Below, piece after piece: positions 3,984-13,697 of a stretch of 14,226 nt of DNA. Below the pieces are notes generated by a model, which ran no database searches, had not been told where the DNA came from, and saw only the letters and a list, made by a program, of their open reading frames with translations. The position numbers and the translations under genes were made by a program. Source of the stretch: Candidatus Zixiibacteriota bacterium (lineage in GTDB: Bacteria; Zixibacteria; MSB-5A5; CAIYYT01); contig JAGLUH010000332.1 in NCBI GenBank assembly GCA_023134875.1, positions 1 through 14,226 of the forward strand, in the 5' to 3' direction. The first letter of the stretch is position 1, and each line of letters starts with the position of its first letter.

Positions 3984-5876
3984 GTGAAAACTGCAAGGAT
4001 AATTCTGCTATTGGTGTGTATGACTCTTCAACCGTTGGCATTTTCTGCCGCTGTGACGCTTACCGACGAGCAGGCGGTTGAAGTTGAAACGGTTCGAGCC
4101 GCGTTGGATATCTTTTTCTATGGATCGGCCGATACGCAAGCCCTTACTGATTCGGCTGTTTCTCTCTTTGATGGCAAGTGCGGGACGCCCCTTGCCCTGA
4201 GGGCGATGTACCTTCATCATCGTTACGGTACCGCCCTCGGTTTCTCTGACTTCTTCCAAAGACCGTTCGATGCTCTCCTTCCAGAAACTTTCGATTCACC
4301 GTCCGGGCATTTTAAGATTCATTACACTCTGCAGCCAGGAGTGGATCAGATCGATTTAAGCTATGGCGACGCCAATGCTAACGATGTTCCTGATTATGCC
4401 GAGATTGTGGCGCGAATCGCCGACTCCGTCTGGGTTCACCATATTGACGTATTGGGTTACCACGAACCACCCAGCGACACCATATTCAGCAAGGGTGGCG
4501 ACTACCGCTATGATGTCTATGTAAAGAGTCTGGGCACAAACTACTACGGAGCAACCTATCTGGACACATTCTACGCTGCTGAAGGAACATATAGAGCCCC
4601 CTCATATATTGTTCTTCATAACCATTATGAGATACTACCGGGATACGCCAACCGTCCAATTGATGCGTTACAGGTCACGATGGCACATGAGTTCTTTCAT
4701 GCCATCCAGTTCTGGTATGATGCCATTGAGATGGAGGACGCGGTTCAGCAGCGTCCCAATGGGAGTTGGCTCGAGATGACGGCTGTCTGGATGGAAGAAC
4801 AGACTTACGACAATATCAATGATTACTATTATTACCTTGGCTGGTATATGCCGTATGTGCACCTACCGCTCAATTTCTGGACGAACAGCCAGACCGCTCC
4901 CACTCATGAACAGATGCACCCATATGGTGCAGCAATCTTCTGCATCTATCTTTCTCAGGTTTTTGGCCGCGACATCATAAGGGACATCTGGGAGCGCTGC
5001 GCCGAGTTGCCGGGAGCGAATGCCTTCTATGGGGCGATCGATAGCGCTATCATCGAGATGACTGGCGGCGAACGTGGTTTCCCCGATGTATTAACCGAAT
5101 ATTATCGCTGGCTCCTTTTCACCGGCGACCGGCAACCCTCGTTTTTTGAAGAGGGCGCCAACTACCCCATGATTCCGAATGACGATTCCATCGGCATTGA
5201 CGTTATTTATCCTTATATCCGCTATGTTGATCAGTTTCCAGTCCAGGGCGAGAAAGAATATCGATTCTACCCTTCCTCTCTGGGAGGAAACTATGTCGTT
5301 TTCAACGCCGCAGTTCTAGATACCCTGATATTCAATGGCGTTACTTCCAGTCCGGTTGGCCCCGAGTGGCGCATATCGGTGATGGGCTACAACCATATCG
5401 ATCCCTCGGTGCCGGTTTGGGTTGATGACAGTCTTTACTGCAATCGTGACACTCTTATCCCGCAGGGCGGCGAGAACCTGACCCAACTAATCGTTGTGCC
5501 GGTTGTCACGAATCCATTTTATGACAAGGATCGAAACAATTACCGGCTGAAAGCGTACGGCGATACTACTCTGCAGTATAAGGTCAATCGGGTCTACCCG
5601 CCCCGGCCGTCAAAACTGATTCTCGGCGCAACGCCTGACAACGTTATTAAGATAGTAGTGGAAATGGTGGAGGATGCCTTTGTTTACCTGGATGTCTACA
5701 CGGTCGCCGGCGAATGGCTCTTTACCGATGTGAAGCCGGGAAGCAGGGGCTTTGAATGCATGGTTTCCTGGGATGGCACGACCGACCGCGGCCAACAGGT
5801 AGCTTCCGGGATATATGTGCTGGTCGTCAAAGTCAGCGATCAAACCGAAACCTTCAAGGTACTTGTTGTCCGTTGA
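3984..5876 (+). CDS. Secreted HExxH metalloprotease with C-terminal FlgD/T9SS-like domain (MXAN_6640-like)
   Basis: A 630-residue exported protein with GTG start. It opens with a signal peptide: KTAR, then a hydrophobic stretch ILLLVCMTLQPLAFSAA, with cleavage likely after the alanines. The centre carries the zinc motif HEFFH at 235-239 (two His ligands, Glu236 as base), and Glu264 or Glu271/272 could be the third ligand. Residues near 120-150 hold a YGDANANDVPDYAEIV segment typical of this family. The last ~95 residues (536-630) form a FlgD-like beta domain containing VSWDGTTDRGQQVASGIYVL and ending FKVLVVR, like type A sorting domains of the type IX secretion system. It resembles proteins called MXAN_6640 family putative metalloproteases (recalled, not searched). 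Probable location is the cell surface or medium; substrate unknown. The stop overlaps the next start. Confidence 0.88.
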   Translation: MKTARIILLLVCMTLQPLAFSAAVTLTDEQAVEVETVRAALDIFFYGSADTQALTDSAVSLFDGKCGTPLALRAMYLHHRYGTALGFSDFFQRPFDALLPETFDSPSGHFKIHYTLQPGVDQIDLSYGDANANDVPDYAEIVARIADSVWVHHIDVLGYHEPPSDTIFSKGGDYRYDVYVKSLGTNYYGATYLDTFYAAEGTYRAPSYIVLHNHYEILPGYANRPIDALQVTMAHEFFHAIQFWYDAIEMEDAVQQRPNGSWLEMTAVWMEEQTYDNINDYYYYLGWYMPYVHLPLNFWTNSQTAPTHEQMHPYGAAIFCIYLSQVFGRDIIRDIWERCAELPGANAFYGAIDSAIIEMTGGERGFPDVLTEYYRWLLFTGDRQPSFFEEGANYPMIPNDDSIGIDVIYPYIRYVDQFPVQGEKEYRFYPSSLGGNYVVFNAAVLDTLIFNGVTSSPVGPEWRISVMGYNHIDPSVPVWVDDSLYCNRDTLIPQGGENLTQLIVVPVVTNPFYDKDRNNYRLKAYGDTTLQYKVNRVYPPRPSKLILGATPDNVIKIVVEMVEDAFVYLDVYTVAGEWLFTDVKPGSRGFECMVSWDGTTDRGQQVASGIYVLVVKVSDQTETFKVLVVR

Positions 5877-6406
5877 GCAGAGGCAATCCCGCCTTTGTTG
5901 GTGTATTCGCCGCGCTTGCCTATGCCGGATCGTTTTTGCTTCTGGCCATACCGAATGCCACCCTCTCCATCCTGCTGGTCTTTTTTGCCGGCTATCTTCT
6001 GGGCAAAATCAACGGTTTGCTGGTCGGTGTTTTCAGCGCCCTTCTGATAACCCTCTTTAATCCCTATGGTCTGCCGCTGTTGCCGATTCTGGCGGCGCAG
6101 GTCGGCGCTTACGCTGTTATCGGCTGGAGCGGCGGACTCTCCGCTCATTTCCTGCCGATGAATAGCACCACTCGCTATCTGTTCACGCTGGCAGTTCTGG
6201 GTCTGCTTACGGCGTTGATATATCAGGTTCCGGTTTCGGTCGCCGATGCTTATCTCTTTGGCCCCTTCTGGGAACGGCTGCTTCTCTCTGCCGGTTTTGC
6301 CGCCATAACCATCGCCGCCAATATCCTCTTCTTTATCCTTCTTTTTCCAGTCCTTGCCAAATTGAAAAAAGTCGGTATCTTCCATATTCAGGATCGGGAT
6401 ACCTGA
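5873..6406 (+). CDS. ECF transporter S-component-like membrane protein
   Basis: A 177-residue, very hydrophobic protein with about five or six membrane segments. The motif pattern FFAGYLLGKINGLLVG, then LFNPYGLPLLPILAAQV, is like the substrate-binding S components of energy-coupling-factor vitamin transporters, and the length is typical. I place the start at TTG 5873, which overlaps the protease stop (TTGA). The frame is also open upstream to an ATG at 5756, but that would sit inside the protease C-terminal domain and add a non-membrane leader. The TTG choice is an inference with only a weak AAGG upstream (about 5856). No ECF ATPase or T subunit is present, so the energising module would have to be elsewhere. 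The outer-membrane barrel follows within 16 bases. The substrate is not known. Confidence 0.75.
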   Translation: MSRGNPAFVGVFAALAYAGSFLLLAIPNATLSILLVFFAGYLLGKINGLLVGVFSALLITLFNPYGLPLLPILAAQVGAYAVIGWSGGLSAHFLPMNSTTRYLFTLAVLGLLTALIYQVPVSVADAYLFGPFWERLLLSAGFAAITIAANILFFILLFPVLAKLKKVGIFHIQDRDT

Positions 6407-6421
6407 CAAGACAAGGATACA

Positions 6422-8704
6422 GTGATATACCGGACATTGACACGAAAGGTTATTGCCTCCACGCTATTCTGCCTGTTTCTCTCTTCTCCAGTAGTAGTAG
6501 GTCGAAACCCTTGTGGTTTCGACAAGACGCTTTTCATGCTTCGCATGAATGTCGAAAGTACAAGACTTTCGACCTACCAGGAGGTAACCCAAGCTACTCT
6601 TCGTGCGCGGCAGCCTTTCCGGTCTGCCCACAGGTTGAGTGAACGAGGGGCAGGTCAGGAGCCCTGCCGCCCACAGAACTGTCATTGCGAGTTCGCCCCA
6701 GGCGGGCGAAGCAATCTCTTGCCACTAATGAGATTGCCGCGTCGTCCGGCAATTGCCGAACTCCTCGCAATGACTGGGTTCGAGGATAATTCATGTCAGT
6801 ACACAGAATATCTTGGTTTTTATCACAGTCTCAGAAACCCTGCCGCCCACCAGTCTGCTGACTCGACCAGCTTGACCGATACCACATTCTCAGTGACACC
6901 TGATAGCTTGTTTGACAAAGGCATCAAGGTCGAGCCTCTGTCATTTGACCGACAAACATGCCACTTCGGCTCAATTATCACTCTCCTTGACCCGCAGTCC
7001 GTGCCCCGTCTGAATCATCTCGACCTACCGCAAATGTCTTCTCGTTTCGATTATGATCCCATGCTGCTGCGCTCCTACCAGGGTTCCTGGGGGGAAACGG
7101 AGTCTATTTATCCCCTCGGGATGTCGCCGTCGTCCTTGTCACGTGCCGGAGATCTTTTTGGGGATGCCGCTTTCACTCTGCCGGTGCCGGTTCCCGGGTC
7201 GGAACGGTGGCTGCGCGTTGCTCCCTCATCGAAGTATTATTTCCTGACACCGGCGCTTGCCGGTCTGGGCGCGCCGTTCGGGCGACTGGTTTGCCTCTAT
7301 CAGGAAACGCCTTCTGAAAACAGCGACAGCGCTCTCAGCAAGGTTCATGTCACGCGGGGTCGCGGCGGCTTTGCCAATACCTATGTCACTTTTGCTAATC
7401 GCTTCGGTTCGCTGGGGACGGTCTCCCTTGACGCCAGCTTTCTCAAGTACGACGGGATCAGGTTCTTCACCGAAAGCAAAGTTGAGCGTCTGCGGCTTAT
7501 CAACAACCTGACAGTGGCGAACAACACCAATCTGCGGATAGGGTTGTTTTTCAACCGCCTGCGCAACAACGAGCTCTTCTTTCCTCCACACTATGAATTC
7601 TATGGCCGCGTGTCGGACAACTACTCCGGTATTGCCGTGCAAGTTGATCGTCTGCTTGACCAGAGCCGCTCCTATGGGAGTCGGCTGACCTATCGTAACG
7701 ATGATCAGAAGCTGCGGCAGTCGTCTCTTGATTTTGATCAGCGGTTTCAAGTCATCGACGGCAACCTCTATTATCACTGGCGACGAGGTCAACATGATTT
7801 GCAGGCGGATATTGATCTCCGTTATCTTCACTACTCCGTCTACGATGACAGGGATCGCGTTTGCTATCTTCGACTGGCGCTGGGTGATCTGCTGCATCTG
7901 ACCGACAGGATCACTCTGTACGGTAATCTCTCCCTGCTGGCCGCCAGTGGCGTAACCGCCAGACCCGCCGGCTTGGCGCTGATTCATTATCAGCACGATT
8001 CCACCTGGTCGACAGCGTTACTGCTGGCGCGCGGCGTGATACTGCCGCAGGCGGAGATGAAATACCTGCCGGCGATTGCGCGCACATTTATCGCATCAGA
8101 ACCTGATTACCGAATCGAAGGCAATTGCGACCTTGATGCCGGACGAACCAACAACATGGAAGTCTTCTTCTCGTATGCGAAGGGAAGGCTTGATCTGCAT
8201 GTCCGTTCCGGAATCTCACAGATGTTCGGTCTGCCGGCCTGGCAGGTTGATGATACCGACTATTACTATAGCGATTATCACCCAATCGCTGTTGACCGCA
8301 ACCTGATATTCGCTACTACTCGACTTCACTTGTCGCTGCCGCATAATGCTTATCTCTCCGCCGCCTATGGTTACCGGCAGGTATTCAAAGATGATATCGA
8401 CTACACCTACGGCCCTGAGCATCTCGCCAACGGGCTTGTCGGTTGGCGTTACCTGATCCCCAAACTGGAGGTCACCGTGTCGGCATCGGCAGGTGTCAAG
8501 TATCGTTCCCCCACATTACGATATTTCGATGGCAGCGGCGACAACGCCAAATTCGTGGCTGAATCATTTTTGAGCTTTGATCTGAAGCGGTTCCATTTCT
8601 TCTATAACTATACGAATCTTTTCGATACCGAATACGCTCTCAACGGCCGTTTCCAGCCGGGACGTTCCCGCTGGTGGGGCTTTACCTGGGAGTTTGTCAA
8701 TTGA
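6422..8704 (+). CDS. TonB-receptor-like outer-membrane beta-barrel with repeat-derived insert near the N-terminus
   Basis: A 760-residue protein from GTG 6422, with AAGGA at 6413-6417. Residues 1-27 are a signal peptide ending SSPVVVG. Residues about 26-143 are encoded by palindromic repeats and unlike any domain I know. The mature part begins near ADSTSLTDTTFSV; DTTFSVT at 153-159 is a faint TonB-box-like match. From about residue 270 onward, alternating hydrophobic/aromatic strands suggest a barrel. The C-terminus (NYTNLFDTEYALNGRF, then WWGFTWEFVN, ending in an aromatic strand) matches the end of TonB-dependent receptors. No plug domain is recognisable between 160 and 270, so it could instead be a porin-like or plug-less barrel. 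Adjacent to the S-component gene and 15 bases before the HD gene. Likely role is passage of a small molecule across the outer membrane; substrate unknown. Confidence 0.75.
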   Translation: MIYRTLTRKVIASTLFCLFLSSPVVVGRNPCGFDKTLFMLRMNVESTRLSTYQEVTQATLRARQPFRSAHRLSERGAGQEPCRPQNCHCEFAPGGRSNLLPLMRLPRRPAIAELLAMTGFEDNSCQYTEYLGFYHSLRNPAAHQSADSTSLTDTTFSVTPDSLFDKGIKVEPLSFDRQTCHFGSIITLLDPQSVPRLNHLDLPQMSSRFDYDPMLLRSYQGSWGETESIYPLGMSPSSLSRAGDLFGDAAFTLPVPVPGSERWLRVAPSSKYYFLTPALAGLGAPFGRLVCLYQETPSENSDSALSKVHVTRGRGGFANTYVTFANRFGSLGTVSLDASFLKYDGIRFFTESKVERLRLINNLTVANNTNLRIGLFFNRLRNNELFFPPHYEFYGRVSDNYSGIAVQVDRLLDQSRSYGSRLTYRNDDQKLRQSSLDFDQRFQVIDGNLYYHWRRGQHDLQADIDLRYLHYSVYDDRDRVCYLRLALGDLLHLTDRITLYGNLSLLAASGVTARPAGLALIHYQHDSTWSTALLLARGVILPQAEMKYLPAIARTFIASEPDYRIEGNCDLDAGRTNNMEVFFSYAKGRLDLHVRSGISQMFGLPAWQVDDTDYYYSDYHPIAVDRNLIFATTRLHLSLPHNAYLSAAYGYRQVFKDDIDYTYGPEHLANGLVGWRYLIPKLEVTVSASAGVKYRSPTLRYFDGSGDNAKFVAESFLSFDLKRFHFFYNYTNLFDTEYALNGRFQPGRSRWWGFTWEFVN
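6497..6577. repeat. 81-base three-armed palindromic element inside the barrel gene
   Basis: The ends are a perfect 11-base inverted repeat (GTAGGTCGAAA at 6497-6507, TTTCGACCTAC at 6567-6577). Inside are three perfect hairpins: GTCGAAACC/GGTTTCGAC (6501-6509 with 6515-6523, loop 5), TTCATGC/GCATGAA (6533-6539 with 6543-6549, loop 3), and GTCGAAAGT/ACTTTCGAC (6551-6559 with 6565-6573, loop 5). With GTAG/CTAC closing, it can fold as a three-armed cloverleaf. It is exactly 27 codons long and lies in frame. It is probably a REP-like or mosaic palindromic repeat; no transposase is associated. Confidence 0.85.
6662..6850. repeat. 13-base direct repeat bracketing the intragenic palindrome
   Basis: CCCTGCCGCCCAC occurs at 6662-6674 and again at 6838-6850, 176 bases apart, on either side of the 94-base palindrome. 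The two copies are read in different frames by the barrel gene. The first copy also pairs with GGCAGG at 6649-6654 as a small hairpin, so it may be part of another repeat unit rather than a target duplication. The copies do not abut the palindrome ends. Confidence 0.6.
6681..6774. repeat. Three-armed palindromic repeat, copy A (intragenic)
   Basis: The ends are GTCATTGCGAG (6681-6691) and CTCGCAATGAC (6764-6774), a perfect 11-base inverted repeat. Internal arms are TTCGCCC/GGGCGAA (6692-6698 with 6704-6710), GCAATCTC/GAGATTGC (6711-6718 with 6730-6737) and CGGC/GCCG around AATT (6747-6758). Copy B is at 9348-9448 in the same orientation. The GTCATTGCGAG...GCAATCTC wording is of a type I have met in scattered bacterial genomes. 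Here it is translated within the barrel gene (HCEFAPGGRSNLL and following residues) without a stop. Confidence 0.88.
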
Positions 8705-9347: not shown

Positions 9348-9448
9348 GTCATTGCGAGTCCGCTGTAGGCGGACGAAGCAATCTCAAGTGCTTGGCGATC
9401 AATGAGCCTGAGATTGCCACGTCCGGCAGCCGCCGGACTCGCAATGAC
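9348..9448. repeat. Three-armed palindromic repeat, copy B (intergenic)
   Basis: Its ends are identical to copy A: GTCATTGCGAG (9348-9358) and CTCGCAATGAC (9438-9448). Arms are TCCGC/GCGGA (9359-9363 with 9369-9373), GCAATCTC/GAGATTGC (9378-9385 with 9410-9417) and GTCCGGC/GCCGGAC (9421-9427 with 9432-9438). The central arm is identical to copy A, while the first and third arms differ in sequence but keep pairing. The loop of the central arm is longer (24 against 11 bases). Confidence 0.9.
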
Positions 9449-12686: not shown

Positions 12687-13697
12687 CTACTCAATCGAGA
12701 CCGATCCCGCAACCATCTTTGCCACTTCGCCGGCCAGGTCAAGGCGGCTATCGTCGTAGACGGTTAAGGTCTGCATATTCCGGTGTCTTGAGAATCTTTG
12801 CGCCTTGCGGACATCGCCGCCAGTCAGATCGAGCGCTTCAGTGATCGCCGCGTGCCGGAGACCATGCGGCCGGGCGACCATTCCAGCCTTTCGGCCAAGG
12901 TCTCGCACGAGGTAGTACACTGCGCTGCCAGTCAAGCGCCGCTCACTGGTAGCGCCCTTGCCGGCTCGGTCGCAGTTAATGAACATGGGACCTTGAGCCA
13001 TGCCCCGCACCTCGAGCCACACCTTCAGGGCATTTTGCGTAGGTTCCGGTAACGTCATGGCAACCTTTTGAGTTCTGCCCTTACCCAAGACAGCCAGAGT
13101 ACCGGAGTCCGGGTCGAAATCATCCAGGTTCAGCGATACGATCTCTCCCCGACGAAGCGCCAGATCATACAGTAATCTCAGGATCGCGACGTCCCTGGTC
13201 GCCTTGAACCGATTGCGATTACCAGCGGCTTGTTCAAGCAGCGCCTTGACTCCCTGTTTGCCGGTACCGGTGGTATCCCGATAGGGTTGCGTCTTCTCGT
13301 TTTCAATCTCGATGGACCAATTCACCAGGCCTAACTGCCTTGCCAGTTTGATTGCCGACCGGATTGTCGCCAGTCGGCGGTTGATCGTCGCCGGAGACAA
13401 CCCCCGCTCGATCATGCTGCTTTTGTATGACAGAACCATGCCGTTGGCGTTGCCCTGGCCGGCAGTCACCAGGCAGCTCAGCGCACTGGGGTTGCTTGTT
13501 GCACCGATGAAAGCAGCAAAGTGAGACAGATCGCTCTCATAGGCGCGTCTGGTTTTCTCAGATCGCCGGCAGAGGAAGTCGTCGATCAGGGTCTGGATTT
13601 TGACTTCTGATGCCGAGATGATACCGCTCGCCTGACAACGCACCGTCAGGGCGGCTTGATCTAATAAGGGATTGGTTGATTGGTTTGTGCTTGCCAT
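12687..13697 (-). CDS. Tyrosine recombinase / integrase
   Basis: A 336-residue site-specific recombinase. Residues about 35-125 are the SAM-like core-binding domain (RRSEKTRRAYESDLSHF, then LSPATINRRLATIRSAI). Residues 150-325 are the catalytic domain with a full set: Arg182 in LRRGE, Lys206 in GKG, His278 and Arg281 in PHGLRH, His305 in SRHRNMQTL and the nucleophile Tyr314 in VYDD. All key residues are present, so it is probably active. The start is ATG at 13697 with AAGG about nine bases before it. It lies downstream of the ATPase gene on the same strand, 89 bases away. It may move an integrated element, but a XerC-like or integron-like housekeeping role cannot be excluded from sequence alone. 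Confidence 0.93.
   Translation of the reverse strand: MASTNQSTNPLLDQAALTVRCQASGIISASEVKIQTLIDDFLCRRSEKTRRAYESDLSHFAAFIGATSNPSALSCLVTAGQGNANGMVLSYKSSMIERGLSPATINRRLATIRSAIKLARQLGLVNWSIEIENEKTQPYRDTTGTGKQGVKALLEQAAGNRNRFKATRDVAILRLLYDLALRRGEIVSLNLDDFDPDSGTLAVLGKGRTQKVAMTLPEPTQNALKVWLEVRGMAQGPMFINCDRAGKGATSERRLTGSAVYYLVRDLGRKAGMVARPHGLRHAAITEALDLTGGDVRKAQRFSRHRNMQTLTVYDDSRLDLAGEVAKMVAGSVSIE

Follow-up and report, generated by a model that had tools for sequence, protein, structure and literature searches.

How does a gene for an exported protein come to carry, directly after its signal peptide, a run of REPs, which are usually regarded as extragenic, as their name says? We addressed this question for one gene in a 14,226-nucleotide stretch of DNA from a Candidatus Zixiibacteriota bacterium, the whole of which is referred to as the window. 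The gene and the repeats are as follows.

6413–6417, plus strand: AAGGA, a possible ribosome-binding site recognized by reading, four bases 5' of the GTG at 6422
6422–8704, plus strand: open frame of 760 aa with a GTG start, gene for an exported protein, probably an outer-membrane barrel
6422–6496, plus strand: signal peptide, residues 1–25 (MIYRTLTRKVIASTLFCLFLSSPVV), placed by a hydropathy peak and by similar N-termini in orthologs, judged by eye
6497–6577, plus strand: REP pair A, 81 bases, two inverted GTAG-tagged REPs with the tags outward
6603–6674, plus strand: REP-like pair B, GGCAG hairpins with outward tags GTGC (left) and GTGG (right), the left unit partly degenerate
6681–6774, plus strand: REP pair C, 94 bases, inverted CGTC-like REPs, GTCATTGCGAG...CTCGCAATGAC, with tags TGTC (left) and AGTC (right)
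6775–6850, plus strand: tail of the insert, whose last 20 bases (6831–6850) share 90% identity with the right end of B (6655–6674)
9348–9448, plus strand: a further C-type REP pair, between an HD-domain gene and an MFS transporter gene

The product of 6422–8704 is probably an exported protein with a putative outer-membrane beta-barrel fold. Its conserved part begins at about residue 144. The highest 15-residue hydropathy within residues 1–40 is 1.97 (from residue 11), compared with 0.77 for the 15-residue stretches that start at residues 101–180, so no later signal peptide is visible, as an earlier note on this DNA had stated. The N-termini of the related P0002, L098, L012 and L013 are also signal-peptide-like by eye. 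Upstream of the gene lies an ECF-S-like gene (5756–6406; Pfam score of 19.9 bits, under the cut-off of 26.7), and the HD-domain gene is its downstream neighbour. Homologs are present in all four other genomes of the family. Elsewhere in the window, a minus-strand frame of 336 aa (12687–13697) resembles a tyrosine recombinase by eye.

The earlier note had described hairpin-forming repeats in frame after the signal peptide, and folding, the open frame and the repeat families all bear this out. As DNA, the 358 bases from 6493 to 6850 fold at -81.6 kcal/mol, compared with -48.35 ± 4.09 for 100 dinucleotide shuffles (z = -8.13), none of which was equally stable, and A, B and C each fold alone into a closed structure. 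The note's 81-base element, GGCAG hairpins and 94-base element correspond to A, B and C. Pair A has the stems GTCGAAACC and GTCGAAAGT, paired at 9 of 9 positions, with loops of 5 bases (CTTGT); both units start with GTAG in a head-head arrangement, and the stem and loop fall within the ranges for GTAG REPs (stem 5–13 bp, loop 2–20) in Table 1 of Di Nocera et al. (PMC3733652). Pair B carries GTGC and GTGG instead of GTAG at its ends and is therefore named REP-like only; the main text of the same paper reports a GTGG tag in most members of one GTAG REP family. Among the CGTC/TGTC/CCTC variants listed for CGTC REPs, the left tag of C (TGTC) fits and the right tag (AGTC) lies outside the list. The stem of C begins with AT, yet it is longer than the norm for CGTC REPs (8–9 bp, loop 4–5) and interrupted. 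We call C CGTC-like because its unpaired tail reads CTC instead of the usual CCA, both here and in the majority of 18 listed copies. A and C look recent because their stems are mostly intact, and B appears more worn; we infer the order and number of the insertions. No match was found in the window with Rfam at gathering thresholds, or in plasmid records searched with 6450–6900, and a protein search with residues 26–140 matched only P0001 among 122 candidates.

We compared the protein with its orthologs. The segment comprising residues 26–143 is absent in all five orthologs with complete N-termini (P0002, L010, L011, L012 and L013, of which L010 is part of L098 and L011 part of L099). In these, the signal peptide is followed by a short Ser/Asp-rich stretch and then by the conserved part. 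The segment is also absent in P0003, whose annotated start apparently lies near the mature part, and P0004 starts later and is uninformative on this point. Two of the five lie in the same gene order, as the window, L098 and L099 have in common a DUF6055-like gene, an ECF-S-like gene, this gene and the HD gene (the neighbours in L098 and L099 were named after those of the window by likeness). The open frames are 651–678 aa long in the four other family genomes versus 765 in the own genome. The comparison supports the reading that repeat DNA was inserted in frame between the signal peptide and the mature protein. Replacement of a lost plug domain, which the earlier note had offered as one role for the insert, is rejected since the orthologs have no plug-sized domain between the signal peptide and the conserved part, and no Pfam family, and so no plug, was found in the window protein.

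P0001 is the same gene on a separate 16,510-base contig; it covers the protein from residue 117, at the right end of C, and differs from the window protein at one residue in 644. The start given to P0001 is the ATG at 6770–6772 (plus strand), at the end of C, after which there is no signal peptide. This start lies past nearly all the repeats and counts against the reading of the repeats as coding. It would suit repeats that are extragenic, with translation from ATG 6770 or later and the upstream region forming a 5' leader with hairpins, and Di Nocera et al. caution in the main text that many N-terminal in-gene REPs may be products of misannotation (PMC3733652). However, such a start would deprive an exported protein of its sole visible signal peptide, and the 15 bases that separate GTG 6422 from the ECF-S-like gene compare well with the 21 in L098 and the 12 in L099 (first start). 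We consider a start beyond the repeats decidedly unlikely. Even less probable, in our judgment hardly credible, is an assembly error by which a REP cluster from between genes was fused to this one. In its favour, the assembly is split into 651 contigs and REPs are short and repetitive, but the separate contig encodes the protein from the right end of C onward and the flanking genes are ordered as in relatives. The left part of the insert is covered by the window contig alone.

The next consideration is whether an open frame through the repeats is surprising. The segment 6497–6850 is open in one of its six frames, and the same frame is open in 374 of 20,000 dinucleotide shuffles. Among complete copies outside the window, open frames number 4 of 18 for A, 12 of 18 for B and 23 of 72 for C. 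The in-frame state is thus beyond chance, though not by much, and the shuffle rate together with the open frames of the copies leads us to expect that a few in-frame insertions would survive without selection for the peptide.

We assessed whether the gene is decaying, with the insert as the mark of a disused gene, as the earlier note had also considered. Three repeat pairs stand consecutively, and a DUF7948 paralog on contig C645 is seemingly broken amid a pile of REPs. Codon usage of residues 26–115 is non-coding-like (-0.139, which among 351 coding windows falls between the 1st and 5th percentiles); the signal peptide, with 25 codons, scores alike (-0.153). These points would fit decay, but the rest of the gene argues against it. 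Departures from the columns that are invariant in the other seven sequences number 9 of 83 in the window protein and likewise 9 of 83 in its sister P0002, 5 of 79 in P0003, 4 of 78 in P0004, 1 of 75 in L098 and 2 of 76 in L011 (mutually close relatives), 11 of 85 in L012 and 10 of 84 in L013. The branch length is 0.51 for the window protein and 0.76 for P0002. The window gene shows no more decay than its orthologs and is not visibly decaying; its conserved positions are retained about as well as in the sister, there are zero stops and zero frameshifts in the 760 codons from GTG 6422 to 8704, and P0001 is nearly identical. Decay is for now not supported and we regard it as unlikely, with room left for very recent decay. 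The note's further suggestion, a tolerated flexible segment, gains partial support because no additional decay is apparent in the remainder of the gene.

We searched for further copies of the repeats. At E ≤ 0.001, the own genome holds 32 matches to A, 14 to B and 19 to C, counts that include the window copies and a few places counted on both strands. Merging the matches of complete-copy queries gave 69 elements (31 A, 18 B and 20 C) in the loci examined, and a strict pattern found 4 complete A pairs. At least one part of the query 6493–6778 was matched in 88 of the 132 genomes of the class, with at most five candidates scored per genome. Of the 69 own-genome elements, 4 lie in frame between stretches that look coding (frames assigned by reading), namely the three in the window gene and a B pair on contig C165; a B on C645, in frame in a fragment, was left out of this count. 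In related genomes, none of 49 REP elements in 37 loci is in frame within a gene by eye. In-gene copies are therefore rare outside special sites, which speaks against the reading that we favour below. Eight open frames across those 37 loci were all judged spurious by eye, and A copies on C42 and C457, a C copy on C251 and a B copy on C93 border frames on their 5' side and were taken to precede the true start. At the C251 locus (L005; G000:C251:293-387), the last bases of the C-type REP pair are ATGAC, and a protein with a signal-peptide-like start, MTLTKNNCHSFIPFVV..., begins there, so the REP may supply the start codon.

The own genome also encodes a candidate mover. A RAYT gene (L101:1372-1851, G000:C279; 159 aa) scores 110.1 bits against NF047646, for which the cut-off is 80. 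It lies between inverted GTAG GTAGGTCGGGTTCC repeats, which start at 1302 and end at 1912, and forms a REPtron. The stem of these repeats is unlike that of A, so this RAYT need not be the mover of A. A second Y1 transposase match, on C192, has a stop codon within it.

The B pair on C165 marks a second site. It lies in frame at about residues 93–116, within a loop, of a DUF7948/SBBP protein with a signal-peptide-like start (P0005; L088:1-1851:-, G000:C165). The alignment columns of this insert hold 3 to 57 residues in 40 homologs and seem to be full of REP-coded peptides. We quantified this using the best 120 of 2,453 homologs. The first pattern count gave 69 occurrences in 4,214 loop residues and 6 in 97,560 other residues, with at least one REP-coded pattern in the loop of 35 of 120 proteins; its patterns were chosen after the loops had been seen. 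An earlier gapped test at score 50 matched 20 of 120 proteins, against 4 with reversed and 5 with shuffled peptides. A further test used six-frame translations of 44 repeat copies (22 A, 3 B, 17 C and 2 of the CATTCCCGC kind) from 112 loci without the DUF7948 motif, compared with 119 homologs (100,814 residues, of which 4,167 are in the loop, 5,181 before the domain and 91,466 in the rest). At score 50, 20 of 23 matches fell in the loop, 1 before the domain and 2 in the rest. Five shuffled sets gave no loop match at this score (rest 0, 2, 0, 2 and 0), and reversed peptides gave none in the loop and 2 in the rest. At score 54, there were 10 matches in the loop, 0 before the domain and 1 in the rest, and the shuffled sets gave nothing. 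The looser score of 46 is less favourable to our reading: it gave 26 loop matches, 3 before the domain and 4 in the rest, but controls reached the loop as well (shuffled sets 0, 1, 2, 2 and 1, with 8, 6, 5, 10 and 3 in the rest; reversed peptides 4, with 5 in the rest).

DNA comparisons covered 22 of 30 loci; the other 8 dropped out for lack of an identifiable domain motif or of identifiable loop borders. Three of the 22 loops (own genome, G012 and G037) match REP B over 28–30 bases at 93–97% identity, whereas none of 434 control pieces of the same genes does. The remaining 19 loops, including that of G045, scored no higher than control pieces. By reading, the G045 loop contains two GTAG units head to head and, after them, a CATTCCCGC hairpin, which we take to be a common repeat kind, and the G012 loop holds a GTAG pair plus a B unit. 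Pieces of these loops have at least 45 matches in G045 (40 of 72 candidates scored) and at least 47 in G012 (40 of 76 scored), counts that include the gene itself and some both-strand pairs. REPs are thus present in the DNA of the DUF7948 loop in three further genomes (G012, G037 and G045). On the protein tree, the carriers of A, B and C by pattern (13, 20 and 6 proteins) require 10, 17 and 4 changes, near the shuffled means of 12.6, 18.8 and 5.9; because the carriers are scattered, several insertions or losses are needed.

Some observations stand beside these results. The paralog on C645 (L086; G000:C645:7640-8044) is an N-terminal fragment with B at the same place as in C165; its frame stops soon afterwards, inside an accumulation of repeats (B, a VIPAQAGIQ-coding repeat, B and A), and it is apparently a broken relative of the C165 gene. 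Peptides coded by VTLSGVEG- and VIPAKAGIQ-type repeats also occur in the DUF7948 loops of P0012, P0014, P0031 and P0041; in the 120 proteins, the first type occurs 20 times and the second 3 times in loops, and neither occurs elsewhere.

The site after the signal peptide also recurs. In 6 of the 120 DUF7948 proteins (P0014, P0017, P0024, P0026, P0044 and P0058), a B-coded peptide (GRQ...SAP) starts at residues 26–58, after an apparent signal peptide and before the domain, and thus occupies the same kind of site as the window insert. The frames in which the repeats are read are uneven: of the six frames of the left B unit, loops use the GRQxxxxAP one in 16 proteins, one more frame in a single protein and the remaining four never, according to patterns written after the loops had been seen. 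In the window gene, A and the left B unit are read as they are in the loops, and C is read in a different frame. Such a bias, and the agreement of the window gene with it, could mean that selection favours REP-coded peptides as a source of new segments with flexibility or binding capacity, beyond mere tolerance. Although the pattern is suggestive, the order in which patterns and loops were examined weakens it, some proteins may have one insertion in common (the carriers outnumber the changes on the tree for each repeat), and avoidance of cysteine-rich or hydrophobic frames would yield an equal bias. We give selection for the peptides a low probability.

The reading that we favour for both proteins is recurrent in-frame insertion of REPs at permissive sites of exported proteins, as far as their sequences indicate. 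For the window gene, we consider it likely that REP pairs of three families were inserted with the frame kept at the signal-peptide junction and that they are read as an N-terminal linker. The pairs would have landed at the first codon past the signal peptide or close to it, and A was probably mobilised by a RAYT transposase. Because the insertions sum to an intact frame and no stop is met, the ribosome would read the repeats as about 115 extra residues at the mature N-terminus. Since neither the signal peptide ahead of the insert nor the conserved protein behind it is damaged, normal export, with a long Arg- and Pro-rich and probably disordered N-terminal linker, is the most likely outcome. 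We note that the 116 residues from residue 26 include 5 Cys and carry a net charge of +5, which is not obviously a harmless linker. Survivors would be visible here because the stretch beside the signal peptide is variable and tolerant, and the DUF7948/SBBP loop would be a recurrent landing site by the same logic.

We compared the insert with known systems. In-gene GTAG and CGTC REPs, with larger clusters that code for 43–82 residues, were catalogued by Di Nocera et al. in 2013, and the main text of that paper identifies RPE-4 and RPE-6 of R. conorii as CGTC REPs and reports that R. conorii proteins bearing an N-terminal RPE-1 are expressed (PMC3733652). Like the GTAG REP/RAYT REPtrons described there, A has the GTAG tag, perfect 9-bp stems, a short loop and the head-head pair, and the own genome has a GTAG-flanked RAYT and in-gene copies. 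In contrast to those cases, about 115 codons are involved here rather than 43–82 aa, with three families beside a signal peptide. C shares with CGTC REPs, including RPE-4 and RPE-6, the TGTC variant, the AT at the stem start, the inverted pairs and the in-gene reading, but it differs in its CTC rather than CCA tail, in its longer interrupted stem and in having other REP families alongside; the comparison with the Rickettsia copies is by their description in that text. Rickettsia palindromic elements likewise lie in frame in unrelated genes, but as described in the MITE review PMC10969869 they are about 150 bp long and each codes for a conserved peptide, and A, B and C are likened to them by description. 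As with in-gene copies of that kind, the window insert is missing from the orthologs and keeps the frame. Enterobacterial RU elements (Delihas 2007, PMC2759123) are also small mobile repeats fused in frame, one of them in a putative exported protein; the elements and hosts are different, and the abstract mentions no recurrent site in one protein family.

Since in-gene REPs, including RPE-4/6, are already known, the window insert is a new and large example (about 115 codons) of a known phenomenon. The earlier note's remark that it knew of no description of such an arrangement in a Zixibacteria-like genome is therefore only partly right, as the elements resemble the GTAG and CGTC REP superfamilies, whose in-gene copies are on record. 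For Zixibacteria, as far as titles and the beginnings of abstracts go and within a search scope that excluded preprints and most subscription papers, no report was found that places REPs within genes of this group or within the SBBP loop. The main text of PMC3733652 does not mention Zixibacteria, and a literature search with the repeat core returned nothing related by title among the matches listed. What appears to be new is that REP insertion is concentrated where exported proteins are permissive, in the loop and in the stretch after the signal peptide.

For annotators, the locus is a warning that starts placed past such repeats may be wrong. The window gene and the DUF7948 loop together offer a natural insertion series for measuring which frames are chosen, what is tolerated and whether function is gained. 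More broadly, and tentatively, since we would place this slightly on the doubtful side of even, REPs of multiple families in Zixibacteria and their relatives may have entered exported proteins in frame again and again, at a small number of permissive sites; read mostly in one hydrophilic frame, they would thus be a regular source of new surface peptide.
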